A DNA stretch of 64,000 bases from Palleronia marisminoris. Lineage in GTDB: Bacteria > Pseudomonadota > Alphaproteobacteria > Rhodobacterales > Rhodobacteraceae. Made by a program: the position numbers and the translations under genes. Below the pieces are notes generated by a model. It did not search any database, was not told the DNA's origin, and worked only from the letters and a program-made list of their open reading frames with translations. Every line of letters starts with the position of its first letter. Positions within the stretch are counted from its first letter, which is position 1. Below, in pieces: positions 2,358 through 36,399 of the stretch. The stretch is from assembly GCF_900172315.1 (NCBI RefSeq), contig NZ_FWFV01000003.1:62001-126000 (forward strand), written 5' to 3'.

Positions 2358-2409
2358 GGCCGACAGGAAAGTCTTGCGCCAACCCGATGCCGCGGCCATT
2401 CAGTCTGTC

Positions 2410-3603: not shown

Positions 3604-3639
3604 CCGAGCATGCTCTCGTCCGAAAGAAGTCGTTCCGGT

Positions 3640-4089: not shown

Positions 4090-4248
4090 GTTTCGCTCCC
4101 TTCATTGCTGGAGGATCACCGCGCGCAAGCACGGCGGCGATCCGATTCGCTTCTGGGAAACAGACGTTTGCCGATGGACGAGGTTCCGGAATTGCGTCGG
4201 GACTGCGCGGGAATCTGCGCTGCTGCGCCCCTTGAAGCCCCCGACCAC

Positions 4249-5298: not shown

Positions 5299-5395
5299 GT
5301 TGTCAACTCCGTCTACAGCCGCCCGGGAAAGCGTCTATCGGACTGAACGCATCACGCCCCGACTCTGGTCCACCCAAGCAGCCGGGGGCCGGGTG

Positions 5396-5788: not shown

Positions 5789-5808
5789 CCGACCTCCATG
5801 GAATGGCG

Positions 5809-6840: not shown

Positions 6841-6890
6841 GGCGAAGACGGCAAGGGCAAGAATGCCCGCGCTCCCCCTACGGTCCGCGA

Positions 6891-8941
<2,051 letters not shown>

Positions 8942-8945
<4 letters not shown>

Positions 8946-9445: not shown

Positions 9446-9812
9446 GGCAGATCTCCGAGTGTTTACGCAGGCCAACTGCGTTCGCGCCCGACGGTTTCAC
9501 CCGACTGCGTCCCGCTTCGCAAGCGGCGTGAAGGTCGGCCGGCTGGACCGCCTCGGAGAGACAGGCGTTGACGGACCGGGCAAGTCCGTAGGATGAACCG
9601 CTCGTCGGACGGTTCAAGGAATCCGGGCCGGAATATCCATCCGCTGCGCGTTCCGCCAGCCTGCTGCGCGTCGCGCCCGATAAGAACCAGGGACCCCATG
9701 ACCGACTTCACAGCCCGTCCCGACGAACGCGGCCACTTCGGCGTCGTCACCCCGACCTGTTTTGGACCGGGTGTCGCCGGCCATTCCCGCGCATCACAAC
9801 GAGGCAGCTGAC
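9446..9812. other. intergenic stretch between divergent pncC and TauE genes
   Basis: About 370 bp with no convincing gene. It must hold the promoter for the minus-strand pncC-nadE pair and probably one for the plus-strand exporter. A 37-codon open frame (9698-9811) with an AGGGA-like site ends 1 bp before the exporter start; its N terminus reads PDERGHFG, similar to the N-terminal motif of tryptophan synthase beta, then loses similarity. This may be chance or a relic. Confidence 0.4.
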
Positions 9813-10646
9813 GTGGAAGACCAACTCGAAGCGCTCGTCGCGACCATCGCCCTGCCCGCCATCGTGTCCGGCATCTTCGGCGGCATCCTTGCCGGGCTTC
9901 TGGGCGTCGGCGGCGGCATCGTCATCGTCCCCGCCCTCTATTTCGCGCTGTCGCTGACGGGCATGGATCCGGGCCAAGTCATGCAGGTGTCGGTGGGCAC
10001 GTCACTGGCCACCATCATCTTCACATCGCTCAGCTCGTCCCTCGGGCATTACCGGCGCGGCGCGATCGACTTCGACCTCCTGAAGCTCTGGGGGCCGTCG
10101 ATCCTGGTCGGTGTGGTGATCGGCGGCATCCTGGGAGGGATCGTCTCGGGCCTGACCCTCATCGCCGTCTTCGCCTCGGTGGCCCTTCTGGTCGCGCTCG
10201 ACATGATCCTCCGGGGCGGCGGCGAGATCGACAGTCCGCGGAGCTTCTCCAAACCCGTCTGGGCGTTCTTCGGCATCATCGCGGGCGCGATCTCGGCCAT
10301 GATGGGGATCGGCGGAGGCACCGTCTGCGTCCCCCTGCTGAACTTCCTCGGCTACGAGATCCGCAGGGCCGTGGGCACGTCGGCCGCGATCGGGTTCATC
10401 ATTGGCTTGCCCGGCGCGATCACCTACGTCCTGACGGGCCTCGGGCAAGACGGTCTGCCCCCCCTCTCGCTCGGCTACGTGAACCTTGCCGCGGCGGCCA
10501 TCATCATTCCCCTCACTGTCCTGTTCGCCCGCGTCGGTGTCGCGATCGCCCACAGGATTCCGCGCCGCGCCCTGCGCCTGACCTTCGGGTTGTTCCTGCT
10601 GATCACGTCGATGCGCATGTTCTTCGACCTCTACAACGCGATCTGA
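9813..10646 (+). CDS. TauE/SafE family sulfite/anion exporter
   Basis: 277 residues from a GTG with GAGG eight bases upstream; an upstream in-frame ATG at 9762 lacks a good ribosome site. The protein is hydrophobic, with seven or eight membrane segments and the two internally repeated glycine-rich motifs of the family: GILAGLLGVGGGIVIVPAL near the N terminus and AISAMMGIGGGTVCVPLL in the middle. TauE/SafE proteins export sulfite, sulfoacetate or related organosulfur anions. A SulP anion permease follows on the same strand, which hints at an anion or sulfur theme, but no sulfur-metabolism enzyme is adjacent. Confidence 0.9.
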   Translation: MEDQLEALVATIALPAIVSGIFGGILAGLLGVGGGIVIVPALYFALSLTGMDPGQVMQVSVGTSLATIIFTSLSSSLGHYRRGAIDFDLLKLWGPSILVGVVIGGILGGIVSGLTLIAVFASVALLVALDMILRGGGEIDSPRSFSKPVWAFFGIIAGAISAMMGIGGGTVCVPLLNFLGYEIRRAVGTSAAIGFIIGLPGAITYVLTGLGQDGLPPLSLGYVNLAAAAIIIPLTVLFARVGVAIAHRIPRRALRLTFGLFLLITSMRMFFDLYNAI

Positions 10647-23770: not shown

Positions 23771-23844
23771 GGCGAGTTGGCGGAGTGGTTACGCAGCGGA
23801 TTGCAAATCCGTGCACACCGGTTCGATTCCGGTACTCGCCTCCA
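23771..23844 (+). tRNA. tRNA-Cys (GCA), integration target
   Basis: 74 nt with a 7-bp acceptor stem GGCGAGT/ACTCGCC, anticodon loop TTGCAAA with GCA at 23803-23805, T-loop GGTTCGATTCC and encoded CCA end at 23842-23844. The 3' part from 23792 is repeated exactly at 33894-33946, so the present gene has been re-completed by DNA brought in by the integrated element. Confidence 0.97.
23792..23844 (+). repeat. attL: 53-bp direct repeat (tRNA-Cys 3' part)
   Basis: Begins CGCAGCGGATTGCAAATC and ends at the tRNA CCA. Identical over 53 bp to 33894-33946; flanking bases differ on both sides. This is the left attachment site of the element. Confidence 0.93.
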
Positions 23845-23904
23845 AACAAAATCAATGACTTAGCCGGAAAAACCGCCACCGCAGGCCAGTCTGCACGGGG
23901 CTTC

Positions 23905-23926
23905 TGTAGCCGCATTGTAGCCACGC
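23905..23926 (+). repeat. arm-type sites at the left end (TGTAGCC motifs)
   Basis: TGTAGCCGCAT at 23905 and TGTAGCCACGC at 23916 lie in tandem 60-80 bp inside attL. The same words recur near attR. Spaced direct repeats near both att sites are typical of integrase arm-binding sites. Confidence 0.5.
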
Positions 23927-24027
23927 GGGTGCGGGTTCCTGAGGGTGGATTGGGTCCGATTAGTCACACGTCGAACAAACCTTGTCGGTGCGTACCCGCC
24001 TGCTAACGTCAGCGAACCGTGCCGTGT

Positions 24028-24051
24028 GACAGTTTGGGCCGTGCGACTGTC
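24028..24051. promoter_or_regulatory. inverted repeat upstream of the 284-aa gene
   Basis: GACAGT and ACTGTC form a perfect 6-bp inverted repeat separated by 12 bases, about 65 bp before the start at 24118. It could be an operator or hairpin for the plus-strand cargo module; no known consensus was matched. Confidence 0.3.
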
Positions 24052-24117
24052 AGTGCCCGGCCCGCGCCATACATGTGACTCTCAACTGAGGCTGTGTGAT
24101 CAACGTGCGAGTGAGGA

Positions 24118-24972
24118 ATGACTAAGACATTTTCAGTCACGGTCTACCCAGAACCCCTGTCCGGGGAGTACCTCACGGTGTCCGACGCGCTCAACCAAGT
24201 CCTGGATATGATCGAGGCTTTGGAGCGTTCGGAGTCGATAGAAGGCTCGGACCGCAAGATCGTCTGGCGGCTCACTGAAGCGCACACAAACAGTCCACCG
24301 TTCACGCTTGTCGCAGAGCCATATCCAGTAAGGCCGGACATGTCGGTGGCTATGGAGGCGGGCCGTGTATCCGGCATTCTGTCAAAGGACGTGGGGAACC
24401 TCCTAAACGGTCAAGTTGGCGGTGTAGTCTTCGACGCGCTGCCAGCCCTCAAGAGAATTATCGGCAGGAATACCAAGCACATCGCTCGCACCGAAGTCCT
24501 GATTTCGGGCAAAGAAGCGTTCATTATCCGGCCACAGAACGCACGGATGGCGATGGCAGCTATTGAGAGAGCCGAAATCGCGGAAAGGGAAAGCGCACCG
24601 GACTGGACGAGAACAGAGTTCGGCACAGTTGAGGGCGAAATATCTGGATTGACGCGCTGGAACGGGAAACCAGCACTGGATATAATTGAAAGGCTTTCAG
24701 AAAAGAAATTCACTTGCGTCCTATCAGACGAACTGTCTGAAAAAGTCGGTCCCGAACACAAGTGGAACGAAGTTTGGGACGGGCGCAGAGTTCATATCAC
24801 CGGAGCATTGTATTACAACGCGGATGGTGATTTGAAACGTGCCGATGCGAGCGAGTTTGAGGAAGTACCGTGGACAGATGTTTCCGTGAACGATCTAAAG
24901 TCTCTTGATGTTTTGGGCGAAAAGACAATGCAAGAGCACCTTGATGAAATAAGGGGTGAAGCATTTGGCTAA
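24118..24972 (+). CDS. hypothetical protein paired with PIN nuclease
   Basis: 284 residues, soluble, with a GAGG site before the ATG. I do not recognise the family. Residues 1-130 look alpha/beta with segments such as LTVSDALNQVLDMIEALER; residues 165-235 look like a beta-rich OB or SH3-like domain (GTVEGEISGLTRWNGKPALDI, then FTCVLSDELSEKV and RRVHITGALYYNADGD). The C-terminal 30 residues are acidic. The PIN-domain gene starts inside its 3' end, so the two are translationally coupled. It may be an antitoxin or partner for the nuclease, although it is larger than usual antitoxins. Confidence 0.75.
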   Translation: MTKTFSVTVYPEPLSGEYLTVSDALNQVLDMIEALERSESIEGSDRKIVWRLTEAHTNSPPFTLVAEPYPVRPDMSVAMEAGRVSGILSKDVGNLLNGQVGGVVFDALPALKRIIGRNTKHIARTEVLISGKEAFIIRPQNARMAMAAIERAEIAERESAPDWTRTEFGTVEGEISGLTRWNGKPALDIIERLSEKKFTCVLSDELSEKVGPEHKWNEVWDGRRVHITGALYYNADGDLKRADASEFEEVPWTDVSVNDLKSLDVLGEKTMQEHLDEIRGEAFG

Positions 24973-25486
24973 GCCGGAGAAATTCTATTGGGATACATGT
25001 GCGTTCATCGGCCTTCTAAACGGCGAGGAAAGCAAAAAGCGGGAACTTGAAATCGTCTATAGCTGGGCGCGAGACGGCAAGGCAGAAATCTGGACGTCCA
25101 CGCTTTCGATGATCGAGTGCCGAAGGCTAAGCAGCGAAAAGCATGAGCCAAAGCCGCTCTCCGTGGCTGGCGGCAAAAAGATATCGGATATTTTTCGCCA
25201 ACCATTCATCAAGCCGATACCGCTTGCCGTGGATATTGCGGACACCGCCAGGGAACTTTGGCGCAAAACGCCAAAGCTGACTAAGTATCCAGACGCGGTC
25301 CACCTTGCATCAGCATTACGATGGAGCGTAAGGATCATGCACACGTATGATCGAGACGATCTTTTGCACCTTTCTGAAAAGCTGGTTTGTCGGGACGGCT
25401 ATCCATTGTTAATCTGCTACCCCGACCACTCGACCGATGGAGCGCTTTTCGAACATGCCAAGCAGAAACCTGCTAGTCGAAACTAG
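24956..25486 (+). CDS. PIN-domain protein (VapC-like nuclease)
   Basis: About 176 residues from GTG 24956; a TTG at 24965 has a better-spaced AAGGGG and may be the true start. PIN landmarks: first acidic strand FYWDTCAFIGLLNGEE, second WTSTLSMIECRRL with Glu, third KYPDAVHLASAL with Asp, and final MHTYDRDDLL with Asp. These four acidic positions make the metal site of the PIN nuclease family, usually RNA-cleaving toxins. It overlaps the upstream 284-residue gene by 17 bp. Toxin, defence effector or RNA-processing enzyme all remain possible. Confidence 0.82.
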   Translation: MKHLAKPEKFYWDTCAFIGLLNGEESKKRELEIVYSWARDGKAEIWTSTLSMIECRRLSSEKHEPKPLSVAGGKKISDIFRQPFIKPIPLAVDIADTARELWRKTPKLTKYPDAVHLASALRWSVRIMHTYDRDDLLHLSEKLVCRDGYPLLICYPDHSTDGALFEHAKQKPASRN

Positions 25487-25489
25487 CGC

Positions 25490-25654
25490 ATGAAGCTTGC
25501 CATCATTCTCGCGATCATCGGCGCTATCATCGGGATATTCTTTGGAGTCTCGATGGGCGTGACCACAGGCGGAAGCGGATACGGCGGCGAACTGTTCTTT
25601 GGCCCGATAGGCGCAGTGATCGGCTTCCTAGGTGGCTGGGCTATTCGTCGCTAA
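25490..25654 (+). CDS. small two-span membrane protein (54 aa)
   Basis: ATG 25490 begins 3 bp after the PIN gene stop and the frame ends at TAA 25654. The product begins MKLAIILAIIGAIIGIFFG, has a glycine-rich turn, then a second hydrophobic span LFFGPIGAVIGFLGGW and ends AIRR. Position within the plus-strand module, tight spacing and clean hydrophobic periodicity support a real microprotein. Its stop overlaps the end of the convergent minus-strand gene by 4 bp. Function unknown; a membrane effector or holin-like role is only a guess. Confidence 0.6.
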   Translation: MKLAIILAIIGAIIGIFFGVSMGVTTGGSGYGGELFFGPIGAVIGFLGGWAIRR

Positions 25655-26172
25655 GCGCGACCCTTGACCTTCACACCCTCGCAGTGACGCAACAGACTGT
25701 TCCAGTAGTCGGCATGGCGCGTTCGTTCCCGCATAACGGAAAGTCGCTGGGACTGCCCCTTTGGAAGCTGATCCAGCGGTGTGTTGAGAAAGATATGGAT
25801 TGCCACGTTTTCCCAGAAGGACTGAACGCTATTCAAGTCATTGCCTTCAAAGAACCGCGCAAGGTCATCCGTGCTGAATTCATTTCCGTTGGCTTTCCCA
25901 TACCACACCAGAAGCTGCGTTACCGCGACAGAAGACAATTCAACACCTTCTTCGCTCAAACGTACATGAGGTTCACACTGCCCCATGTCGAATATGAATT
26001 TGTCGAACGTAGGTAGTTCCCTTTTATTCAGCGCATGCTTTCCGTGAACAGCGTCAAATTGCCTCCCCTCAACGAAGAACGCGATACCTCGTTCATCATA
26101 GACAATTGTGATAGTTGTGGGGTGCCGAACCACTGCGGCGCTCATCTTCATTAGTTCTTGGTCGCTGATCAT
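25651..26172 (-). CDS. hypothetical protein of the element
   Basis: 173 residues, soluble, not recognised. An N-terminal beta-rich part (TTITIVYDERGIAFFVEGRQFD) is followed by a helical C-terminal part with FFEGNDLNSVQSFWENVAIHIF and a basic end. It is the last gene of the minus-strand series; its start overlaps the preceding gene by 4 bp. No catalytic motif seen. Confidence 0.65.
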   Translation of the reverse strand: MISDQELMKMSAAVVRHPTTITIVYDERGIAFFVEGRQFDAVHGKHALNKRELPTFDKFIFDMGQCEPHVRLSEEGVELSSVAVTQLLVWYGKANGNEFSTDDLARFFEGNDLNSVQSFWENVAIHIFLNTPLDQLPKGQSQRLSVMRERTRHADYWNSLLRHCEGVKVKGRA

Positions 26173-26441
26173 TTTCTTCTTCCAATCAAGTTATTCCATG
26201 CTTCTTCGGGGTTGCCGTGGTGGCGGTGTAGAAAGTCGAGCGGCGTCCAATCCTGTTCCAGCGAGGCCGCATACATGGCGTCAGGCTCGTCACCCGCCGA
26301 TTGCTTCAGGCGCACCAACCATCGGTCGTAAAAGACACGTTGGCCTGCGGTTAGGCTCGCCAGCAGGTCGGGCGGTGCGCTACGCTCTGCCGCTTCCAAC
26401 ATCCGCTTTGCCTTCAGCTTCAGACTAATAAGGCGCGACAC
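26169..26441 (-). CDS. small hypothetical protein of the element
   Basis: 90 residues from a GTG start whose first base overlaps the stop of the upstream gene. Basic helical N terminus (LISLKLKAKRMLEAAERS), then SLTAGQRVFYDRWL and a C-terminal DWTPLDFLHRHHGNPEEAWNNL segment. Not recognised; the size and gene position recall small phage accessory proteins. Coupled to both neighbours by overlaps. Confidence 0.6.
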   Translation of the reverse strand: MSRLISLKLKAKRMLEAAERSAPPDLLASLTAGQRVFYDRWLVRLKQSAGDEPDAMYAASLEQDWTPLDFLHRHHGNPEEAWNNLIGRRK

Positions 26442-26866
26442 TAGCTGCCGTCCCTTAGTAGGCGCTCGATCTGCCCCAACCGATCCTTGAGCGCTTCCAT
26501 GTCCTGTAGTTCCTGAAGTTTCGCCAGGGATGCCGTGATGGCCTTAGCCTCGTCCGGCGTGATCATCCCCGACACCAGCGCGTCAGACACCGCACCTGTG
26601 GTCGCGCCCTCCAACTCAACAACCCTGCCAGCGGGCAAGACACGATCCAAGACGTATTGAATAGCGCGTTGATCGTTCGCGCGAACATTCTCTGCAAGGC
26701 CGCGAAACGCATCGTCCGTGAGGCTTCTAATTGTTGCGACCGCCGCAACGCTCACCTTATTCTTGGTCCCTCGGGGGCGACCTACGTTTCCGTTCGACGT
26801 GAACCGGCCAGAGTTATCACGTCCGGTTTCCTGATCGGTTTCTTTACGGAGATTATCGGTCGTCAT
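26441..26866 (-). CDS. DUF5681-like protein with GRPRGTKNK motif
   Basis: 141 residues. The N-terminal third is polar and reaches the motif NGNVGRPRGTKNK near residue 35, reminiscent of the DUF5681-type phage proteins often found near terminases. A helical middle (IRSLTDDAFRGLAENVRANDQRAIQYVLDRVLP) and a C-terminal coiled-coil-like heptad region (LAKLQELQDMEALKDRLGQIERLL) follow. An AGGTGG site precedes the ATG. DNA binding is likely from the basic motif; a packaging role is speculative. Confidence 0.6.
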   Translation of the reverse strand: MTTDNLRKETDQETGRDNSGRFTSNGNVGRPRGTKNKVSVAAVATIRSLTDDAFRGLAENVRANDQRAIQYVLDRVLPAGRVVELEGATTGAVSDALVSGMITPDEAKAITASLAKLQELQDMEALKDRLGQIERLLRDGS

Positions 26867-26867
26867 G

Positions 26868-27083
26868 TTATATCCACCTCACCTTAACGCCCCGTCCCTG
26901 CAACCAATCACAAACCGCCGCAGTATCATAGTGCGCAGTCGAACTGCGTCCGTAGACCTGAGGAAACTCGCAGTCCTTGCGGAGATACAGCATAGATTGG
27001 CGACTTCTGCCGAGCGCAACATAGAGTTTTTCTGCGTTGATCGTTCGCCCGGCAGGTATGAAGACTTCAGCAGGTAACTTCAT
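26868..27083 (-). CDS. small excisionase/AlpA-like DNA-binding protein
   Basis: 71 residues. The layout, with a short helix-turn-helix (AEKLYVALGRSRQSMLYLRKDCEFP) followed by Q-V-Y-G-R and a C-terminal DTAAVCDWLQGRGV, resembles winged-helix excisionases of the Xis/AlpA type: turn, 'P' wing strand, then final helix. It is one codon upstream of the DUF5681-like gene. Probable role is element excision or transcription control; the match is by pattern only. Confidence 0.55.
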   Translation of the reverse strand: MKLPAEVFIPAGRTINAEKLYVALGRSRQSMLYLRKDCEFPQVYGRSSTAHYDTAAVCDWLQGRGVKVRWI

Positions 27084-27112
27084 AATTTACACCGCTTCAA
27101 TTACTTAATAGG

Positions 27113-27142
27113 TTGGGACGGCCCAGCGACGAGCCGTCCCAA
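27113..27142 (-). terminator. hairpin terminator after the 274-aa gene
   Basis: TTGGGACGGC and GCCGTCCCAA form a perfect 10-bp stem with a 10-base loop, just after the stop of the minus-strand gene at 27147. Five T residues follow on the plus strand and A-rich sequence precedes it on the minus strand, so polarity is ambiguous. Confidence 0.6.
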
Positions 27143-27146
27143 TTTT

Positions 27147-27971
27147 TCACTCATAGAGCGCGGCCCAAATCTCAAACGGCTGCTTGTCGGTAGTTGCAGC
27201 AACAACCGCGCAGTAGCGTTGAAGCATAGTCGAGATTTCAGAGACTCTTGCTTCGGTAGCTTCGAGAAGCGCCATTCTTGCTTCGACCCAGTTTGCAAGC
27301 TGACCTTTATCGACGCCCGATGCAGCCGGTTCTTCGAGTGAAGGCTTTTTCGCGAATTGAGTAGCGCCCAACGTTCGCTCGCCGTCAAAGTTGGCCGCGA
27401 CCACGTATTTCATTTCGACGGATCGCCACATGTCATCGGGAAGCGCGATTAGGTTTCGCAAATTGAGTAGCGTTGCTAATTGGTCGGCAGACATGCTTGG
27501 AACGCGTGTCATAACTTGATTGGCGTCCATTGCTAGCAATGAATTGGCGATTGCTGCGGCGCGTGAAGCAATCACTGTATGGGCTTCAAACAACTTCCGT
27601 AAATCGTTCTGGGCAGTTTGCTTTTGGTTTATCAGCGCGCTCACGAGTTCCTTGAAAGGACGGCGCATGATTCGCACCGTGATCTCGAAGGCGGCTTCAT
27701 ACATTCTTGCGGGATGCCTGTCTTTTGCTGCGGCAGCAATATCGTTCGCGGCGATGGTTGTTGCGTTTCCGAAGAATTCCAGTGTCTTTTTAAGTTCCTC
27801 GGTATCGTTCGGGTGCGGCGCAAGAATGAACGCGTTCGTCCCTTGCGATGTGATAAGGGTTCCGCCGTCGATGTTCCGCACCTGCGGCACCGGATAGTCA
27901 TTCAGGGGCGAATTGTCGAAAACCTGTGGGAACGCGGCGACGCGAGCCATTATGGTTGTGTGTCCGAACAT
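27147..27971 (-). CDS. hypothetical protein of the element (274 aa)
   Basis: About 274 residues from the ATG at 27971, which has AAGGA ten bases upstream; the longer frame is not needed. Mostly helical, with alanine-rich stretches (ATTIAANDIAAAAKDR, ASRAAAIANSLLAMD) and no membrane segment. I do not recognise a family. The N-terminal 50 residues, with FPQVFDNSPLNDYPVPQVR and GGTLITSQGTNAFILA, look beta-rich. It stands alone between a hairpin terminator and an upstream region that holds one copy of a 48-bp repeat, so it may be an independently regulated gene. Confidence 0.65.
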   Translation of the reverse strand: MFGHTTIMARVAAFPQVFDNSPLNDYPVPQVRNIDGGTLITSQGTNAFILAPHPNDTEELKKTLEFFGNATTIAANDIAAAAKDRHPARMYEAAFEITVRIMRRPFKELVSALINQKQTAQNDLRKLFEAHTVIASRAAAIANSLLAMDANQVMTRVPSMSADQLATLLNLRNLIALPDDMWRSVEMKYVVAANFDGERTLGATQFAKKPSLEEPAASGVDKGQLANWVEARMALLEATEARVSEISTMLQRYCAVVAATTDKQPFEIWAALYE

Positions 27972-28047
27972 CTCAATTTCCTTTTTTACGGTCGAGCAAG
28001 TACCGTCAAAGTGCGGGGTGACGGCGCGCGACGCCAGCCACACCCCA

Positions 28048-28095
28048 CCGCAAAAAAGGGGTCAGATTGCCTGCCGTGGTTGCTATGCGGCTACA
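28048..28095 (-). repeat. 48-bp imperfect repeat, copy 1
   Basis: Starts with CCGCAAAAAAGGGGTCAG and ends with ATGCGGCTACA, the same two words at the same spacing as copy 2 at 31735-31782; the middle is diverged. It lies about 80 bp upstream of the start of the 274-residue gene. Read on the minus strand the end word is TGTAGCCGCAT, as found near attL. A shared promoter, operator or recombinase-binding site is likely. Confidence 0.55.
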
Positions 28096-28204
28096 ACGCG
28101 ACCGACGCGCCACCCGCCAAGCATCTACGCAAGTTCTTCGCATTGATATCATGCAAGATTTTCCCGTCAGCGTCCGCATTGATCGTCGGACTAGGTATCC
28201 GCTG

Positions 28205-28525
28205 CTAGGCGGGCGACTTATGGCGCGGTGTGCGGCGGCGGTGCGATCCACTCGACCGTTGTTCGACCGGCACCCCGCCCGCCGTCCTACGGATGGCCAC
28301 GCGTTCGGTGGCTGACGGTATGCCGTCCGGGAACGTCAGCCGCACGGGCGACCAGTAGCGCCAGCGCCCGCCCGCCCCTGGCCGGTAGCCAAGCGTCCGC
28401 AGCATGTCAGCAATGAACGGCAGCTTGTCGTCGGTCATGCCGTAGATGGACGCAAGCTCGTGCGGCGTGATCGTCCCATGCGCCTTCAGGATTTCGTTCA
28501 GTGTGATTGGTTGCCGATCCCTCAT
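28205..28525 (-). CDS. small hypothetical HTH-like protein
   Basis: 106 residues from the ATG at 28525, which has GGAGGATC directly upstream; an ATG four codons earlier lacks this. The N-terminal half (ITLNEILKAHGTITPHELASIYGMTDDKLPFIADMLRTLGY) reads like a winged-helix DNA-binding fold followed by RWRYWSPVRLTF. The C-terminal third is basic and disordered. It lies next to the iteron-like repeats, so a replication or regulatory role for the element is plausible but unproven. Confidence 0.6.
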   Translation of the reverse strand: MRDRQPITLNEILKAHGTITPHELASIYGMTDDKLPFIADMLRTLGYRPGAGGRWRYWSPVRLTFPDGIPSATERVAIRRTAGGVPVEQRSSGSHRRRTPRHKSPA

Positions 28526-28627
28526 GTGATCCTCCAAATGATCGGTTGTTCGTCTTGGACGGGGGGCAGTGGCCTGGGCGGTCTCATAATTTCCATAATT
28601 TATGGGATATGAGAGGCCATAATTAGG

Positions 28628-28842
28628 TTCTGTCTTTCTGTCATTTTCTGTCGGCGCTAAGTGTCTGATATTTTTGGATAACGACAGAAAGACAGAAAGA
28701 CAGGAATTGTAGAGCGCTATACAGGGGAGTTGTTATAACTGCCTACTGTGGGTAACCGGGAATTCTCGTCCGTTCTGTCGTTCTGTCTTTTCCGCCCAAC
28801 TTCAACAGGTTAGCCCGACAGAAAATGGACAGAACGACAGAA
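28628..28842. repeat. iteron-like TTCTGTC/GACAGAA array, candidate replication origin
   Basis: Ten exact heptamers: TTCTGTC at 28628, 28636, 28646, 28773 and 28781, and its complement GACAGAA at 28683, 28691, 28817, 28828 and 28836, plus a one-base variant at 28699. They form two clusters, each with direct copies at mostly 8-base steps facing inverted copies. The array fills the gap immediately downstream of the primase-helicase gene, and an AT-rich stretch (TCATAATTTCCATAATTTAT) lies just left at 28583-28602. This is the layout of a replication origin bound by an initiator, though a termination or copy-control site is possible. Confidence 0.6.
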
Positions 28843-28844
28843 CC

Positions 28845-31208
28845 TCACTGATACCCCTGAGCGGCGGCATAATTTGAGCAGGTTTCCCGCCTATTAACGT
28901 GGAAAAGTTCAGGCCGCTCGTTGTCTTCCTGAAAATATGGCATCGTCGCCCGTCCTATTTTTGTGTAGCCAAGATTTTGCAGGCATTTTGTGATCGCCTG
29001 CGGACTATAATCGCGCTTGAAAAGCTTCTTTGCCATTGTCCGACTAACCCAACCACCACGGAAGCCGGGCCTCTCCTGCTCGACCGCTTCAAGGATTGCT
29101 TGTTCAATCGGCCCGCGCGAAACACGTATGGCTTCATCAGTGCTCGTTGTGTTTGGCGCGCGCATTGGGATTGCGCCGCGTTCAACGGGATAGTTCAAAA
29201 GGTAATATGCGATTGCTTTGAGGCCGGTTTCGTGGACTCGCCAGCCCAACCACCTATAGAACTCGTGAAAATAGGCGTCGTCCATGCCGCGTGACTTCAA
29301 GTCGTCATGCGACTGAATTGCACTGTAGAATATCGCATAACGCCGTCCATTTTTTTCAACTGGAACCGCGTCCTTGTGGTTCGTGAAGAACACCCAATTC
29401 GCGGGTGTGTCGGCTTCCCGCTGGTCTTGCCCCTTCGCTTGAACCTCGCCTTCAGCCTCAGATATCAGTGGTTTTAAGACTTCAACGAGTTCGCGCTTAT
29501 CATCGACCTTGATTTCGTCAACGAGGATCAAAAGCTTATTTTGCAGCCACGCATTGAATTTCGCGCCGCTGCTGAGTAGGTCGCTTGCCTTGGGCGAGTA
29601 GAAGTAACGCCGTCCCATCGTGTATTGAAGAATGTGCTTGATTATGTTTTTTCCGACGCCTTCGGTAGACTGGATCACGGGTGCCCACGGTATCTTGTGC
29701 CCCGGATACTTCACGTTGTGGGCAATAAACTGAATGAGTAGCTGTCGGTCGTTTGGATCAGGCAATAGCTTTTCAAGAAAACTCAAGAGCCGCGTAACGT
29801 CGCCGGGTTCGCATTTGATGTTTGCTGGTCGATACACGTTGACGTACGTAAGCCCCATGTCGTCGGTTATGACTTCGCCATGAGCGCGGTCGGGTAGAAA
29901 GCGTGTGCCGAAAACCTTTGGTATTGTCCAAAGCGTCGAGTTTGTTGCAGCGGCCCACGCGTTTTGCGTTACGCTGGCCTGCTCGTCATAGATAAATTTC
30001 TTATTTCCGTAGACGGCGTTGAATGTTTTTTCATTCATCATTTCGCCGTGCGGCGTGTGAATTTTGCATTCACTAGTAACGAATGTGCAGCCCGCGAACC
30101 ATTGGCGCTGCTCTATGTCGGTCAGCATTTCGCCGCTGCAATCCATACCGGGCGGTGCAGGCGGACTAGGGTGTGCGGTGCCGGGGTCGGCAGGTGCAGG
30201 CGCGCCCTGTGGCACTATGGCCTGTGGCGCAACCGTGCGCCCTGCGAGCAGGTATTGCCCGCCAACGGCAGGGATGCGCCGCAGGATGGAACCCCAACCA
30301 ACTTGCGTCTCACGGATAGACTGCCACTGTTTGCGGTTCTCGGCGGGATCATCCGCCGCATACTGCGCGCACCATTCGGACCACATGCCGAAAAGCGTGG
30401 CTTCGTCCGCATGGTTCCAACCCGCTTGCTTGAACGCTGCCATGAAGCTGATCCAATCGCTGCGGACAAGCTTGTTCGGATCAATATGCGCGAGCGCGTA
30501 CCGCAGCCAATCGAGCGACGGCGCGGCTTGATCGGGATCGCCCAGGTTATGACGATCACTGTAGCTTTCGACTACGTTGACCGTCGCAAGCGCGGCTTCC
30601 AACACCGTCACGTCATAACGTTGCCCGTAACCGGGCAACGGCGACCACGTTACCAGTTGCGGCTCGCCTTTTTGGTGGTAGGTGCCCGGCAGGCGCATGA
30701 GCCTTGTCGCGTCAACGATGGATTTATCACCATCGAAAAACTGCGCGAACTTGCGTTGATTGAGCGTGAACCGATCATTATTACAATACGGTTGAACCGG
30801 CCAATAAACATGCGCCTTACCTGCACTCGACTGCACCGCAAACGCGGGCGCAGGATACCACGACGCAGCACGTTGCAAGTTCTGCATTGCTGATACGTTG
30901 TCTAGGTCGACGAAATGTGCGCGCACTCGCGACACGTTCATAAGGTCGCGTCCCTGCCCGTCCAACTCGCTGATCACGACAAATATGCCGTACTGCTGAT
31001 TGTTGTAGAAAATTATTGAGCGCCAACAATCCGCAAGCGTTCCTCGAAACGGGATTGCCGGAATGTCGCTTCTTACATCGCTGATCGCTCGGAAATCAAA
31101 CACTTCATCATGCGAACCAATGGTTGAAACAAAGGCGTTTGCGAGCGTGAAGTTTTGAATAGGCGCGGGTTCAGCGGCGCTAGATTGCGCTGGCGTTGCG
31201 ATGTTCAT
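28845..31208 (-). CDS. AEP primase-SF3 helicase fusion (NrS-1 polymerase-like)
   Basis: 787 residues. N-terminal archaeo-eukaryotic-type primase/RepB-like domain: metal motif HFVDLDNVS, SSAGKAHVYW with the His, and DATRLMRLPGTYHQ. A PriCT-2-like helical region follows (LDWLRYALAHIDPNKLVRSDWI...) at about 230-310. After a linker, a DUF5906-type SF3 helicase: Walker A STEGVGKN near residue 515 (N in place of S/T), Walker B LLILVDEI near 555, and sensor WVFFTNHKDAVPV. This order is that of the phage NrS-1 polymerase, which starts DNA synthesis without a separate primer. It probably replicates the excised element. Confidence 0.85.
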   Translation of the reverse strand: MNIATPAQSSAAEPAPIQNFTLANAFVSTIGSHDEVFDFRAISDVRSDIPAIPFRGTLADCWRSIIFYNNQQYGIFVVISELDGQGRDLMNVSRVRAHFVDLDNVSAMQNLQRAASWYPAPAFAVQSSAGKAHVYWPVQPYCNNDRFTLNQRKFAQFFDGDKSIVDATRLMRLPGTYHQKGEPQLVTWSPLPGYGQRYDVTVLEAALATVNVVESYSDRHNLGDPDQAAPSLDWLRYALAHIDPNKLVRSDWISFMAAFKQAGWNHADEATLFGMWSEWCAQYAADDPAENRKQWQSIRETQVGWGSILRRIPAVGGQYLLAGRTVAPQAIVPQGAPAPADPGTAHPSPPAPPGMDCSGEMLTDIEQRQWFAGCTFVTSECKIHTPHGEMMNEKTFNAVYGNKKFIYDEQASVTQNAWAAATNSTLWTIPKVFGTRFLPDRAHGEVITDDMGLTYVNVYRPANIKCEPGDVTRLLSFLEKLLPDPNDRQLLIQFIAHNVKYPGHKIPWAPVIQSTEGVGKNIIKHILQYTMGRRYFYSPKASDLLSSGAKFNAWLQNKLLILVDEIKVDDKRELVEVLKPLISEAEGEVQAKGQDQREADTPANWVFFTNHKDAVPVEKNGRRYAIFYSAIQSHDDLKSRGMDDAYFHEFYRWLGWRVHETGLKAIAYYLLNYPVERGAIPMRAPNTTSTDEAIRVSRGPIEQAILEAVEQERPGFRGGWVSRTMAKKLFKRDYSPQAITKCLQNLGYTKIGRATMPYFQEDNERPELFHVNRRETCSNYAAAQGYQ

Positions 31209-31242
31209 TGGGAAATAAGTCCTAGATCGGATTGGAATGAAA

Positions 31243-31260
31243 AATAGCTGTCAAGCTATT
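31243..31260 (-). promoter_or_regulatory. palindrome overlapping a TTGACA -35 element
   Basis: AATAGCT-GTCA-AGCTATT is a perfect 7-bp inverted repeat about 40 bp upstream of the primase-helicase start. Read on the minus strand its centre is TTGACA, a consensus -35 hexamer. A protein bound to the palindrome would block the promoter. The matching -10 is not clear. Confidence 0.4.
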
Positions 31261-31445
31261 ACGACTTCCGGTCATCCGACCGACGCGCCGGGGCTTCCTC
31301 CCGACGTTGACCATCCGGCCCCGCACAAGCGGTCTAAGCGTGGGGTGAGGGCGGGCAATGCTCAAACGGGCTAAGCAAAGTGACAGTCCCGCCCTCTATT
31401 CCAATCGCAAAGGACTTGCACCGCCGACGATAGTGAAATGCGCCG

Positions 31446-31658
31446 TCAGCGGTCAACAGGTATTTCCGCTGCTACAACGCTTTGCTCAACATAGGCGAGA
31501 AGATCAGAAGCCCGATAACGGACGTTCCGGCCCAGCTTCACATATGGAATTCGCCGTTCGCACCAGCGATCACGCTCAAGTTTCTTTTCCGAAACGCCAA
31601 GATACTCAGCCGCTTGCGCCTGCGTAACAATGGCGGGCAATGTGACGTTCTTTTCCAT
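31446..31658 (-). CDS. helix-turn-helix excisionase-like protein
   Basis: About 70 residues from the ATG at 31658, with an in-frame ATG ten codons earlier as an alternative. The core AAEYLGVSEKKLERDRWCERRIPYVKLGRNVRYRASDLLAYVEQ is the MerR/excisionase-type winged helix-turn-helix used by Xis and AlpA proteins. Located between the integrase side and the primase gene on the same strand, it probably steers excision or controls primase expression. Copy 2 of the 48-bp repeat lies upstream. Confidence 0.8.
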   Translation of the reverse strand: MEKNVTLPAIVTQAQAAEYLGVSEKKLERDRWCERRIPYVKLGRNVRYRASDLLAYVEQSVVAAEIPVDR

Positions 31659-31734
31659 ACCTGCAATCCCGCTGCATTGATCTATCATGCTGTCGGTGTA
31701 TTGCGCGTTCGGGCTTGTTGGTAGGCGTTGTGGG

Positions 31735-31782
31735 CCGCAAAAAAGGGGTCAGGGTCGCCCACGCGGCTACGATGCGGCTACA
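31735..31782 (-). repeat. 48-bp imperfect repeat, copy 2
   Basis: CCGCAAAAAAGGGGTCAG at the start and ATGCGGCTACA at the end match copy 1 (28048-28095) exactly and at equal spacing. It lies about 80 bp upstream of the HTH gene start, the same relative place as copy 1 before its gene, which favours a regulatory function. Confidence 0.55.
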
Positions 31783-31867
31783 GGACGGGCGTTTTGCCTC
31801 GCCCTAGCCGTTAATTGATTGAAAAATAAGAATGATGCGGTGGCCTGCGGCGGATATGCTGTCCGCT

Positions 31868-32488
31868 TCAGTCGTCTTCGTACAATGAGCGTATCGCGGC
31901 TTTCGTCGCGGCTTCGCGCTCCCTTGTAATCGCCTCATATTCTTCAACCGTCCGAACGCTGATCTTGAAATGACTGGCCGTGTCGGCAAGCGCGTTCTTG
32001 TGTAGCGAAGACTTTGCGATTTCGTTTTGTAGGTGGTTCATGACCGCAACCACATCGGGGTGCCCTGCCCCTTTGGGTGGCCGTCCCGCCAGTGCGTCAT
32101 GCTCATTCGCTGGCTGCGGTGCAAACAGTTCGGCCAATAGTTCACGTTCGCCCGTCCCAAGCGGCGGTTGCCGTGATCGGAGCATGCCAGCCAGGATCGC
32201 GCCAGCCTCCGCAGGGCGGTCTTCCTTCCCGCTACGCCATGCGGCGCTTGCGCGGCGCACGGCATGGGCAAACATGGTCTCGCCCGCGCGCCCGCTACCC
32301 TTCCGCAGCTTGCCCGTGACGGCCTGCGCCAGCAGTTCCAGCCCGTGCTGATCGAGCGGCTGACCGGACCGCAGGACGGCTGCAAGGGCCTTCCCTTCGG
32401 CGGCTACATCCTCGCCAGCCTTCGGACGTAGACCGCCCATAGCCCGCCGTACTGCATGCGCAAAGCCAACGTCATACGGCGCGGTCAT
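31868..32488 (-). CDS. hypothetical protein with internal duplication
   Basis: 206 residues. Two related blocks are seen: residues about 9-54 (FAHAVRRAMGGLRPK..., AVLRSGQPLDQHGLELLAQ) and about 73-120 (FAHAVRRASAAWRSG..., GMLRSRQPPLGTGERELLAEL). A C-terminal helical part (ADTASHFKISVRTVEEYEAI) resembles an HTH. It overlaps the integrase gene by 4 bp, so the two are co-translated. No known family is recognised; a regulator or accessory factor of the integrase is a reasonable idea. Confidence 0.65.
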   Translation of the reverse strand: MTAPYDVGFAHAVRRAMGGLRPKAGEDVAAEGKALAAVLRSGQPLDQHGLELLAQAVTGKLRKGSGRAGETMFAHAVRRASAAWRSGKEDRPAEAGAILAGMLRSRQPPLGTGERELLAELFAPQPANEHDALAGRPPKGAGHPDVVAVMNHLQNEIAKSSLHKNALADTASHFKISVRTVEEYEAITREREAATKAAIRSLYEDD

Positions 32489-33744
32489 GGGCCGACTTCC
32501 CGCAACATGAAGTCTTCGATGCGCTGCATGGGATCGCGCAGATCGTCGGTGGTGATTTCGCCCACGTAACCTGCCGTCACGTCGCTGGTGTTCCCGCTGA
32601 TATGGTTCAGCAGGCGTTTCAACTTGTATGCGGAAATATCGAGTGAGTTCGCAACGGCGGCAAAGGTTCTGCGAAGGTCATGTGCGGTTGCCCGCAACCC
32701 GGTGGCCTTGTGGATGCGTATGAAAGCGGTTCGCAGATCGTGCGACACTTCATCCTTTGAGTTTCCGAACACATACTTGCCGGACACTTCTTTTCGCGCC
32801 TTCAAGATTTCCGTCAGCTTTGCGCCAAGGGGCAACTGGTGATCGCTGCGATTCTTGGTGTCTCTAAACGTCACCGTCCGCTTTTCTATATCAACCTCCG
32901 TCCATGTGAGCGCGGGATAGCCATCTTGTTCATTGCCGAAAACTTCGGACAAGCGCGCGCCAGTCAGCAAGATGAACAGCAAAGCGTCGCGATGTTCGGC
33001 CCCGAACCTCAGCCCGGTTAGTTCCGTGCGAACGGCGCTTACCCAACGCGGAATGTCTTCACGCTCGACCCGTGTTTTCTTCGGTTCAGCCGCCGCCCAT
33101 TGGTTTAGCCGCTTCAACCGATCAACGGGATTTGCAGCGATGAGCGGCGTGGCACTGTCGCTTTCGTCGTTCACGTGGTTCAGTGCCGCACGAAGGTAAC
33201 GCATCGCAAGATTAGCTTGCGTAGGTGCCACTGAAGCGATTTCGGCATGACGCTTTCTGACCATTTCGCCCGTGATTTCTGTCACTGGCGTCGCCATCCA
33301 ATCCCCGAAGTGTCGCTTCGTGATGGTGTTGATATCGCGGAGTGTCCTGGCCTTCTTCAGCTTGACGCCTGAACCGTATCCCCGCCCCTTCTTCTTGGGC
33401 GCAGAGACGTACCGCTTGACCGCATCTTCTAGCGTCAGGGACTGCGCCACCTTCAAGGCTTCAGCCTCTTTCTTGCCCGCCTTCTCGGCTACGGGATCAA
33501 CGCCCCTGTTGAACGCATCCGCGTGGCGAGTTGCCTCCGCCCGTGCCCGCTTCAGGTCTGCGAACACGTCCACGCGCCCGATGGTGACGCGCCGCTTACG
33601 CCCGTTCACGCGCCCATCGAATATGAAGGATTTGGCCGTAGGCGTGACCCTCAGCCCAAACCCCCGTGGCGTGTCAAACCAGTAGAACTTCTGACCCGTA
33701 TCGGGGTGAGGCACCGCATCAATCGTCTTCTTGGATAGGTCCAC
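32485..33744 (-). CDS. int: tyrosine recombinase (P4-type integrase)
   Basis: 419 residues from a GTG. N-terminal arm-binding DUF4102-type domain (FYWFDTPRGFGLRVTPTAKSF...), a SAM-like core-binding region at about 110-210, then the catalytic domain with Arg in LLTGARLSEV, Lys in FRDTKNRSD, HDLRR near residue 350, LLNHISG and the nucleophile Tyr in TAGYVG. All catalytic residues are intact. It starts about 150 bp from attR, the usual position for tRNA-targeting integrases. Confidence 0.95.
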   Translation of the reverse strand: MDLSKKTIDAVPHPDTGQKFYWFDTPRGFGLRVTPTAKSFIFDGRVNGRKRRVTIGRVDVFADLKRARAEATRHADAFNRGVDPVAEKAGKKEAEALKVAQSLTLEDAVKRYVSAPKKKGRGYGSGVKLKKARTLRDINTITKRHFGDWMATPVTEITGEMVRKRHAEIASVAPTQANLAMRYLRAALNHVNDESDSATPLIAANPVDRLKRLNQWAAAEPKKTRVEREDIPRWVSAVRTELTGLRFGAEHRDALLFILLTGARLSEVFGNEQDGYPALTWTEVDIEKRTVTFRDTKNRSDHQLPLGAKLTEILKARKEVSGKYVFGNSKDEVSHDLRTAFIRIHKATGLRATAHDLRRTFAAVANSLDISAYKLKRLLNHISGNTSDVTAGYVGEITTDDLRDPMQRIEDFMLREVGP

Positions 33745-33763
33745 CCGGTCATCCCCCGTTGAA

Positions 33764-33863
33764 TGTAGCCACTATGTAGCCACGCTGATTAGAAGTAGCC
33801 GGTGCCTACAACGGACTTGTTAGGGGTGTTTTCCCTGCATAACAACGGAATTTCGTGGCTACA
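33764..33863. repeat. arm-type sites at the right end (TGTAGCCAC motifs)
   Basis: TGTAGCCAC occurs at 33764 and 33775 (the second as TGTAGCCACGC) and inverted as GTGGCTACA at 33855. They lie between the integrase start and attR and match words near attL, as expected for integrase arm sites. Confidence 0.5.
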
Positions 33864-33893
33864 TGGTCAGGTTAGAAGTCCTGCGGGGCGTAT

Positions 33894-33946
33894 CGCAGCG
33901 GATTGCAAATCCGTGCACACCGGTTCGATTCCGGTACTCGCCTCCA
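33894..33946 (+). repeat. attR: 53-bp direct repeat (tRNA-Cys 3' fragment)
   Basis: Exact copy of 23792-23844, carrying the anticodon arm to CCA end without the tRNA 5' half, so it is not a functional tRNA. It is the displaced original 3' end of the target gene. Confidence 0.93.
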
Positions 33947-33995
33947 TCCCCTGAACAAGCACCTGAAGACGGACGCGCCGAGCGGCGCGCCCACG

Positions 33996-35300
33996 TCATT
34001 TCTCGGGAATAAGGCCGCGGGGGCTGAACCGCAGGACCAGCAATAGCACGACGCCCATCGTCAGCAGCCGGATATGCGCGGCGGACGTCGCAAGATGTGC
34101 CTTCAGCGCCGAGCCCTCGGGCAAAGGCGATGCCAGCGCCGACATCACGAGCTGGCCGAGGGGCTCTACCTGGACCCAGAGGAACCAGATCAGGAACCCG
34201 CCCAGCACCGCGCCCAGGTTCGATCCCGATCCGCCCACGATCACCATCACCCAGACGAGGAACGTGAATCGCAGCGGCTGGTAGGAGGCCGGCGTCAATT
34301 GCCCGTCGAGGGTGGTCATCATCGCGCCGGCAAGGCCGCAGACCGCGCTGCCGATCACGAAGACCTGCAGGTGCCGGCGCGTGACGTCCTTGCCCATGGC
34401 GCGGGCGGCGGTCTCGTTGTCGCGGATGGCGCGCATCATCCGGCCCCAGGGCGAATGCAGCGCCAGTTGGGCCAGCACGAAGACGATCGCGAGAACGATG
34501 GCGAAGAGGATGCCGTAATTCGCCTTCACCCAGAGGCCGCTCGCCGTGACCGGGTCGAGGCCGAGCCCCCCGACGATATCACCGAACTCGCGCGAGCGCT
34601 GCAGGTCCACCTCGTAGGGAACGGGGCGCGGCAGGCCGATGACGTTCTTCACGCCCCGCGCGAGCCAGTCCTCGTTCTTGAGGACCGCGATGACGATCTC
34701 GGCGATCCCGAGCGTCGCGATGGCCAGGTAGTCCGACCGCAGCCCCAGCGCCGTCTTGCCGATGATCCAGGCCGCGCCCGCGGCGATCAGCCCGCCCACC
34801 GGCCAGGACAGGATCACCGGCAGGCCGAGCCCGCCCAGGTAGCCGGTCGAGGCGGCGTTCGTCCGCTCCACCGCCTCGACGCCCGGGTCGAGGACGCCGC
34901 GATAGACGAAGAAGCCTATGACGAGGATCGCCAGAACCACCAACACGCGCGCCCGCCCCGGCGCCATGCGACCGAAGGCCAGGATGGCCGCCGTGATCGT
35001 GGCAGCGCCGATCGCAAGGCCCGCCAGGATGCGGGTGCCCCCTGCGGCCCAGGCCTCTCCGACGGGCGGCATGGACACCAGCACGGTGGCCAGGCCGCCA
35101 AGGGCAACGAAACCCATGACGCCGACATTGAACAGACCCGCGAACCCCCATTGCAGGTTCACGCCCAGCGCCATCACCGCCGAGACGAGCCCCATGTTCA
35201 GGATGACGAGCGCCGAGTTCCAGCTCTGGAATACGCCTGTCAGGACGATCATCATCGCCACACCGGCGAAGAGAAGCGTGTTGCGGAGGGTCTCGTTCAT
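33996..35300 (-). CDS. livM: branched-chain amino acid-type ABC permease LivM
   Basis: About 434 residues from the ATG at 35300, which overlaps the livH stop by 4 bp; the longer open frame upstream lies inside livH and is not coding. About ten hydrophobic spans, with LivM-family features such as VNLQWGFAGLFNVGVMGFVALGG, the cytoplasmic coupling region SPWGRMMRAIRDNETAARAMGKD and GGSGSNLGAVLGGFLIW. The insertion after the first 120 residues makes it longer than most LivM proteins. Last gene of the cluster, reading toward the integrated element. Confidence 0.92.
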   Translation of the reverse strand: MNETLRNTLLFAGVAMMIVLTGVFQSWNSALVILNMGLVSAVMALGVNLQWGFAGLFNVGVMGFVALGGLATVLVSMPPVGEAWAAGGTRILAGLAIGAATITAAILAFGRMAPGRARVLVVLAILVIGFFVYRGVLDPGVEAVERTNAASTGYLGGLGLPVILSWPVGGLIAAGAAWIIGKTALGLRSDYLAIATLGIAEIVIAVLKNEDWLARGVKNVIGLPRPVPYEVDLQRSREFGDIVGGLGLDPVTASGLWVKANYGILFAIVLAIVFVLAQLALHSPWGRMMRAIRDNETAARAMGKDVTRRHLQVFVIGSAVCGLAGAMMTTLDGQLTPASYQPLRFTFLVWVMVIVGGSGSNLGAVLGGFLIWFLWVQVEPLGQLVMSALASPLPEGSALKAHLATSAAHIRLLTMGVVLLLVLRFSPRGLIPEK

Positions 35301-36307
35301 ACCGATTTCCCCTTGAAGAGGCCCGTGGGCCGGAACAGCAGAACGACCACGAGGATCATGAAGCTGACCGCGAACTTGTAGTCGGTGGACAGAAGCTGGA
35401 CGAGGTTCGACGGCTCGAGGCTGTCCGGCATCGCGTAGGCCAGCACCCGCTTCCACGCGTAGGTGATCGTCACCTCGGAGAACGCGATGACGAAGCCACC
35501 CGCGATCGCCCCGACAGGCGAGCCGAGCCCGCCGACGATCGCCGCCGCGAAGATCGGCAACAGAAGCTGGAAATAGGTGAAGGGCTTGAAGCTCTTGTCG
35601 AGGCCGTAGAGCACGCCGGCCAGCGTCGCCAGCGCGGCGACGATCACCCAGGTGACCGCCACGACCCTCTCTGGATTGATGCCCGACAGCAGCGCCAGGT
35701 CCTCGTTGTCCGAGAACGCGCGCATGGATTTGCCGGTGCGCGTGCGGTTGAGGAACCAGAACAGCGCCGCCACCACGATCACCGCCGTGATCAGCGTGAT
35801 CGCCTGGCTGGTGCGCAGGCCGAACCCCTCGTCGAGGCCCGTCCATGCCTGGAAGTCCCGGACGGTGAAGATGAACCGCGCGCCGTCATCGAAGAACTGG
35901 TCTCCCGGTCCCACGATCAGACGGACGACGCCGTTATAGATGAACATGACACCGATCGAGACGATCACGAGGATCACCGGGTTCGCCTTCTGCCGTCGAT
36001 AGAAGCGATAAACGACCCGGTCCGTCCCCAGCAGGAACAGTGCCGTCACGATGATTCCGGCCGGCAGCGCCAGAAGCGCGGTCGGGATCGGCCCCAGCGA
36101 GATTCCAAGCGCCTGCAGCCCCCATGTGAACAGGATCGTCGCCATGGCCCCGAACGCCATCGAGTCGCCATGCGCGAAGTTCGAGAACCGAAGGATCCCG
36201 TAGACCAGCGTCACTCCCAGCGCGCCCAGCGCCAGCTGCGCCCCATAGGCCGTCGCCGGGATCACCACGAAATTCATCAGCGCCACGATCGCGTTGATCG
36301 GCTCCAT
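35297..36307 (-). CDS. livH: branched-chain amino acid-type ABC permease LivH
   Basis: 336 residues, strongly hydrophobic. Family motifs: LALGALGVTLVYGILRFSNFAHGD near the N terminus, the coupling segment FLNRTRTGKSMRAFSDNEDLALLSGI, and IVGGLGSPVGAIAGGF near the C terminus. It forms the inner-membrane channel with LivM. A 92-bp gap separates it from the livF stop upstream. Confidence 0.92.
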   Translation of the reverse strand: MEPINAIVALMNFVVIPATAYGAQLALGALGVTLVYGILRFSNFAHGDSMAFGAMATILFTWGLQALGISLGPIPTALLALPAGIIVTALFLLGTDRVVYRFYRRQKANPVILVIVSIGVMFIYNGVVRLIVGPGDQFFDDGARFIFTVRDFQAWTGLDEGFGLRTSQAITLITAVIVVAALFWFLNRTRTGKSMRAFSDNEDLALLSGINPERVVAVTWVIVAALATLAGVLYGLDKSFKPFTYFQLLLPIFAAAIVGGLGSPVGAIAGGFVIAFSEVTITYAWKRVLAYAMPDSLEPSNLVQLLSTDYKFAVSFMILVVVLLFRPTGLFKGKSV

Positions 36308-36399
36308 CAGCCCGCCCCCTCATAGAACCCGGTGTGAATTGCTTGGCTCGCGCCCGGCCGTCCGGACGTCCGAATGTTTCTTCTCGAATTTTGCATCAC

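Follow-up and report, generated by a model that had tools for sequence, protein, structure and literature searches.

A candidate PICMI-like phage satellite at a tRNA-Cys gene of Palleronia marisminoris, with a primase domain apparently exchanged with siphophages

The window analysed here, a stretch of 64,000 nucleotides from contig NZ_FWFV01000003.1 of Palleronia marisminoris, contains an element bounded by exact 53-bp direct repeats with a spacing of 10,102 bp, the left copy completing a tRNA-Cys gene, as a first-pass annotation of this DNA had stated (Table 1). The GC content of the element is 55%, compared with 68% outside it. The minus strand carries the genes for an integrase (int), the protein g206, a helix-turn-helix (HTH) protein of AlpA type, a primase-helicase (Rep787) and six smaller proteins, and at the tRNA end the plus strand carries A284, a PIN-domain protein and a 54-aa open reading frame (ORF). 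The start of g206 lies within the stop codon of int, the overlap being ATGA. A search of the element against its own genome revealed no second copy, and the sole other match was that of the origin region to itself.

Table 1. Coordinates of the features of the element in the window
Feature	Position	Strand	Remarks
tRNA-Cys (gca), integration site	23771..23844	+	last 53 bp (23792-23844) form the left repeat
A284, cargo position	24118..24972	+	one plasmid relative, Methylobacterium, 26%
PIN-domain protein, cargo	24956..25486	+	overlaps A284; PF01850, 34.8 bits, cut-off 23.6
54-aa hydrophobic glycine-rich ORF (m54)	25490..25654	+	no Pfam match above cut-off
g173, last block gene	25651..26172	-	equated with relatives by position only
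g90, block gene	26169..26441	-	similarity in L067 and L066
g141, best conserved block gene	26441..26866	-	weak DUF5681/YdaS-like signal
g71, small, excisionase-like (weak)	26868..27083	-	phrog_2790, E 0.13
g298, mostly helical	27147..28043	-	no fold match
g110	28205..28537	-	seen in this element only, among loci compared
Putative replication origin	28625..28845	.	10 GACAGAA/TTCTGTC repeats, directly 3' of rep
rep787	28845..31208	-	RepB_primase, PriCT_2, DUF5906 helicase (Pfam cut-offs passed)
hth80, AlpA-like regulator	31446..31688	-	HTH_17, Pfam cut-off passed
g206, iolg-like	31868..32488	-	4-nt ATGA overlap with int
Tyrosine integrase (int)	32485..33744	-	PF00589, Arm-DNA-bind_3; 78% identical to Sulfitobacter and Pseudosulfitobacter int
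Right 53-bp exact repeat	33894..33946	+	adjoins int

All 13 proteins of the element were searched against Pfam, and ten of them (without int, hth80 and m54) against PHROGs and PADLOC. The integrase and the primase-helicase named in the first-pass annotation were confirmed, their domains lying above the Pfam cut-offs. Two excisionase-like proteins had also been proposed, of which the AlpA/excisionase-type HTH_17 protein passes and the second, g71, is weak. For capsid, tail, terminase, portal and relaxase families no match above cut-off was obtained (Pfam for 13 of 13 proteins, PHROGs for 10 of 13), in agreement with the earlier statement that no capsid, tail, large terminase or conjugation gene is recognisable. 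The match of A284 to a 'virion structural' PHROG (E 0.44) is at chance level, and the best PADLOC E-value among the ten proteins was 0.017.

Related elements were collected by aligning the replicase with three phage homologues and then scanning GTDB genomes once, which gave 14 loci. Nine of them (L064-L072) are clear relatives, and five short matches (L073-L077, 28-35%) were left out. The nine come from two Paracoccus, Seohaeicola, Pseudosulfitobacter, Sulfitobacter, Rhizobium, a Hyphomicrobiales metagenome-assembled genome (MAG), a Rhizobiales isolate and an alphaproteobacterial MAG; the Seohaeicola element is also present in G531, a genome of the same family as that of the window. In Sulfitobacter sp. 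CW3 (L067), a sister element of 10,131 bp with exact 56-bp repeats is found at tRNA-Cys, its identity to the window being 78% for int, 80% for the HTH protein and 56% for g206, and in Pseudosulfitobacter (L066) a tRNA-Cys end lies beside int (45 of 53 matches). Integration at tRNA-Cys is supported by the exact repeat together with the Sulfitobacter sister element. Three other elements, L047, the Rhizobium element L068 (Rhizobium sp. Root1220) and the Hyphomicrobiales element L070, occupy tRNA-Ser sites, their 15-bp exact repeats lying at distances of 7.6, 11.2 and 12.0 kb, respectively. Repeats of at least 14 bp were not found for L064, L065, L069, L071 and L072, three of which (L064, L071 and L069) are truncated where their contigs end. 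The 4-nt overlap with int (ATGA or GTGA) recurs in L066, L067, L069 and L163, and also in L120, where the upstream ORF is only a candidate integrase. By longest-ORF calls the overlap is longer in L047 (8 nt), L112 (8), L108 (28) and L070 (46), and no int-overlapping ORF is in the ORF lists of L065, L068 and L072. Among other genomes the replicase gave one weak match in the genus (1 of 13) and 13 matches in the class (13 of 384), all partial and with identity of at most 34%, and g298 was found in none of the same 384.

The gene set, which the first-pass annotation did not recognise, became recognisable once these relatives were lined up. In eight of the nine loci, all of other genera, rep is followed by g71 and g141 in the same order (g141 by tblastn, E 1.6e-21 to 8.4e-41; g71 by tblastn or blastp), and the contig of the ninth, L069, stops after rep. 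This conserved order and the 10.13-kb sister element make it unlikely that the small genes are parts of a decayed prophage, as had been allowed for earlier. L065 and L068 showed similarity to g298, as did, weakly, L071; the remaining counterparts of g298 and g90, and those of g173 throughout, were equated by position and length. Genes of g141 type were found in 11 genomes of the class, out of 385, and in 31 of the family, out of 374, with the own genome included both times; the matches were mostly weak. Because such genes also accompany other replicators in integrase elements (L108, L112, L118 and L163), our guess is that g141 has a role not tied to a single replicase, for example packaging. 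The possibility that g141 is a terminase small subunit gained no support: the ten genes scanned near its distant relatives include two AAA_25 ATPases, a transposase, an integrase and others with no terminase, and the PHROG families are all of unknown function. Its DUF5681 match is sub-threshold (E 0.037), and its predicted fold has a pLDDT of 64 and a pTM of 0.30. The predicted fold of g298 (pLDDT 80) had no PDB or viral match with E <0.001, and neither g141 nor g298 found a match in 50,697 phage records.

The origin-like array of the first-pass annotation was also borne out. TTCTGTC/GACAGAA occurs 10 times in 28620-28850, whereas all other parts of the 64-kb window together have 7 copies (about 0.11 per kb). 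The repeats form four clusters within 28625-28845, and these 221 bp align, with gaps, to their own reverse complement at 70%, making an imperfect palindrome. The gap after rep is low in GC in the relatives (0.41-0.52). Repeated 8-mers 3' of rep were compared with the maximum of 200 base shuffles in nine elements, and in seven of them a repeated 8-mer exceeded all 200 shuffles. The word differs in each: AACCAAAA in L064, GGGCTAAA in L065, GGTTCCCA in L066, AGTGGATG in L070, ACTCTTAA in L071 and CTGTCACC in L072, with the window having its own. No such excess was present 3' of rep in L067 and L068, nor in the phages P106B and X2_24. Repeats that vary with the element and lie beside its own rep fit a Rep-specific origin; the origins of staphylococcal islands likewise lie beside rep.

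Defence-like cargo was detected in four of the six relatives scanned with PADLOC, namely GmrSD/NsnA plus HEPN in L065, a KAP NTPase of candidate system PDC-S49 in L066, a type I-like methylase with its specificity subunit (between rep and the block) in L068, and AriA/AriB in L071. It was not detected in L072 or in L067, whose cargo is a trypsin-like protein. The elements have in common the small-gene block, an element-specific array that in most of them follows rep, and variable, often defence-like cargo, and they look like an apparently undescribed satellite group in Alphaproteobacteria. Among the matches listed, open-licence full-text searches yielded no description of a family of phage satellites from Rhodobacterales or Rhizobiales.

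Two relatives additionally carry a tape-measure gene, as one 831-aa ORF before tRNA-Ser in L064 from Paracoccus shanxieyensis (5379-7874) and as two ORFs in L070 (9699-11609), and no other tail gene was recognised in either. The best matches of the L064 gene are in other siphophages (about 33% over half of the protein). An origin of this gene from Rigallicvirus was rejected, none being found in the P106B-group loci compared, which are parts of those genomes. Tape-measure genes of some members could reset the tail length of the helper.

The first-pass annotation had assigned the element to the P4/tycheposon/PICI plan. A satellite-like plan without structural genes is supported, but the closest published plan is that of PICMI. 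In the available text of their description (PMC10803314), PICMIs (phage-inducible chromosomal minimalist islands) are small satellites in Vibrionaceae that virulent vibriophages induce and package, with int, a gene iolg that overlaps int by ATGA and is needed for excision, an alpA regulator and a primase. Integration at fis is called their hallmark, an overlapping gene at int occurs in 21 of 35 subfamilies (ATGA most often), and the PICMI model was matched 135 times among complete genomes, Vibrionaceae accounting for 67, with incomplete variants in other bacteria (PMC10803314). The element is like a PICMI in the order of int, ATGA-overlapping gene, AlpA-type HTH and DUF5906 primase, in small size and in the absence of structural genes, and it contains an integrase, PF12728 (AlpA; PF05930 being the alternative) and PF19263. 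PF13148 (DUF3987), which likewise belongs to the PICMI model, was not found among the 13 proteins by Pfam. The element differs in that it is integrated at tRNA-Cys instead of fis, measures 10.1 kb compared with about 6-7 kb (near 6.7 kb), adds the block g298-g71-g141-g90-g173 and the repeat array after rep, and resides in Alphaproteobacteria. Because the plan is shared and the site and size are not, we call the element PICMI-like rather than a PICMI. The incomplete variants mentioned in the PICMI paper may include such elements.

With P4-like satellites, PICIs, cfPICIs, PLEs and tycheposons (in part after PMC11389934), the element shares an integrase, an AlpA-like regulator, a primase-helicase, att repeats and a cargo slot, and AriA/AriB in its relative L071 is a further likeness. 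Among the differences, a capsid gene is absent, none of Psu, Sid and TerS was recognised, and the replicase and the gene block are of another kind. P4-like satellites carry Psu, Sid and Delta-type genes, for which the proteins of the element gave no Pfam or PHROG match. PICIs carry TerS or another packaging gene, for which the element offers only the sub-threshold DUF5681 match of g141. Capsid and packaging genes of its own, as in cfPICIs, were not found by Pfam and PHROGs, nor was the relaxase of integrative mobilisable elements in the 13 proteins by Pfam. Charybdis elements were set aside as a comparison: their integrated forms reside in archaeal hosts, and the paper on them (PMC12324425) makes no mention of a primase.

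The nearest named relatives of Rep787 are the Rhizobium phages P106B and RHph_X2_24 of Rigallicvirus (KF977490 and MW960031), which resemble it over the full-length primase-helicase (47% over 98%) but, unlike the element, are 56-kb tailed phages with structural genes. The replicase was found in 14 loci of viral contigs, one being P106B itself. The P106B helicase is present at 53-74% in 11 of the 13 others, and three of the 13 have a counterpart, along its length, of the large terminase of X2_24 (60-63%). In L078, the viral locus nearest to the window, only a MazG-like gene at 42% was found within the 13.7 kb compared. The replicases were split at residue 340 into primase and helicase halves. 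The primase half of the window is closest to the viral loci L078, L048 and L085 (58-63%), and its helicase half is 46-52% identical to those of 14 phages, 49% to L064 and L065, and 23-27% to L066 and L067. In the latter two, a helicase of a very different kind is joined to a primase half that shares about 60-62% identity with those of L048 and L078. Other replicase types are represented by L068/L070/L072 (40-48% mutual identity) and L047/L071 (71%), and the primase half of L068 is 65% identical to those of Rhizobium and Sinorhizobium phages.

A primase tree was built from 25 halves (11 satellites and 14 phages), leaving out L083 (P106B again) and L090 (short), and a second one from 22 rows, with L065, L069 and L070 (long or unsure) also removed. 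The 25-row tree shows six changes between satellite and phage labels, and strong branches force at least four; at least four are still forced in the 22-row tree. A single satellite clade was rejected (22 rows, delta lnL 215, p-AU 5e-97). In the 22-row tree, L066/L067 group with phage L082 at 100/100 and the Rhizobium element L068 groups with Rhizobium phages at 100/100. The window joins L078/L048/L085 at 91/88 on an unstarred branch, and the starred branch at 97/96 unites the seven-member set of window, L078, L048, L085, L066, L067 and L082. For the helicase tree, rows with fewer than 300 aligned columns were dropped, including L066 and L067; the helicase halves of the window, L064 and L065 stand apart from the 14 phages (80/93, long branches). 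In our reading, this interleaving of satellite and phage primase halves, with attached helicases of several types, reflects a primase domain that the elements and one phage group, the Rigallicvirus-like siphophages, have exchanged repeatedly. No account of such exchange between satellites and helpers was found by open-licence full-text searches.

The explanation we favour, and hold with fair though not full confidence, is that the element is a phage satellite, integrated and built on a PICMI-like core, with a helper likely of Rigallicvirus type and a primase exchanged with helpers. Phages that trade a replication domain with satellites must share a cell with them, so Rigallicvirus-like siphophages are predicted as the first helper candidates. 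We infer excision, replication and packaging, as well as the helper, from gene content and sequence comparison. Infection by a helper, most likely a P106B-like siphophage of Rigallicvirus, would lead the AlpA-like protein to switch on excision, in which int and g206 would together recombine the 53-bp repeats. Rep787 would then bind the GACAGAA array, open it and prime replication of the circle, and the machinery of the helper would package the product. The g298-g173 block is a probable adaptor of helper late functions, the A284/PIN pair may be a host-protective or competitor-excluding module, and the primase domain of the satellite would be swapped with that of the phages it parasitises.

Several observations weigh against this explanation. 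The assignment of g298, g90 and g173 to the block is largely positional, the kinship of L078 with the P106B group is thin, resting on the MazG-like gene and rep, and the overlap with int is not uniform among relatives; these three points lower our confidence a little. The genome loci were baited with primase-domain peptides, so the presence of the domain in each reflects selection, and the labels in the 25-row tree are partly clustered (six changes, where shuffled labels average 8.5 and 20-27 of 500 shuffles are as low). Neither a terminase-small nor a capsid-size gene was recognised in the element. A search for cos/pac DNA shared with 13 phage records, 12 of which are IMG/VR contigs that may be fragments, gave nothing outside rep better than E 0.009. 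The tRNA-Cys regions of 20 relatives were also compared with both flanks of the element. The left flank (pcm/tolC-like genes, named from translations) adjoins tRNA-Cys in 8 of 20, and the right flank (livM side, branched-chain-transporter-like, named from translations) in 0 of 20, so this comparison is unable to reveal an empty site. The exact empty site was found in 0 of 20, and no circle or packaged DNA was seen, the analysis being of sequence only.

The element could instead be a satellite of an unrelated helper, having drawn its primase from a common gene pool, in which case the primase would be uninformative about the helper; this is possible but somewhat doubtful. The trees do not settle the direction of exchange, g141-type elements exist with other replicators (AAA_25 ATPases in L118 and L159), and the L064 tape-measure gene is not from the Rigallicvirus group among the records compared. 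However, phage and host agree for the Rhizobium element L068, whose primase half groups with those of Rhizobium phages, and L066/L067 likewise group closely with phage L082. Transfer without a helper, by conjugative mobilisation or natural transformation, with the phage-like primase as an old acquisition, is unlikely: although no packaging gene or site was recognised and the rep relative L047 is on a conjugative Paracoccus plasmid, the 13 proteins include no relaxase, and the phage-type primase in the replicase, the defence-like cargo of relatives and the PICMI-like core argue otherwise. The remnant of a complete prophage, for which the tape-measure genes still present in L064 and L070 might speak, is very improbable, since other genera also harbour elements of about 10 kb in which the ends are intact, the gene order is kept and the genes are full-length, this one has no structural gene, and g141 and g298 are unmatched in the phage records searched.

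Some further features of the locus and its surroundings were recorded. A 48-bp direct repeat (77%) lies within the element at 28048-28095 and 31735-31782, and the part of it with GTAGCC / GGCTACA is seen again close to either end of the element (23904-23929 and 33764-33785); these may be arm sites of the integrase or sites for a regulator. To the right of the element, the transporter genes (33947-36310) are present elsewhere in most of the 20 relatives, and their location away from tRNA-Cys may reflect a rearrangement or the earlier insertion of other DNA next to the tRNA. Partial extra copies of the tRNA-Cys end were found on the same contig in other family members (G005 C5, 24 kb away; G020 C28, three copies; G018 C1), and because of these second and third ends the gene looks like an integration hotspot in the host family, possibly with further islands there. 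L156, an int/AlpA relative in the host family, has 53-bp exact tRNA-Leu repeats 10.08 kb apart (136-10303) and a rep 25% identical, and g141 was not detected in it by these searches. A search of the host genome for the terminase family phrog_2 gave a single match at G000:C22:436000-454000 (L154), where its neighbours are genes for an HK97 capsid, a prohead protease, a portal and tail proteins, an arrangement that we take to be gene-transfer-agent-like.

A broader generalisation can be put forward tentatively, at distinctly less than an even chance: satellites of this group would repeatedly take the primase domain of their Rigallicvirus-like helper while keeping their own helicase, origin and block, so that the primase names the helper, and the tape-measure gene that some carry could reset its tail length. 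If the primase domain does track the helper, helpers of uncharacterised satellites would be predictable from sequence, and the question is raised of why a satellite would need the primase of its helper but could do without the helicase. Novel means by which phage particles are diverted can be sought in the shared block, which is well delimited, and novel anti-phage systems in the cargo slot. In this way, the pattern of primase exchange offers a testable prediction of the helper in a host group for which no described satellite family was found in the literature searched.

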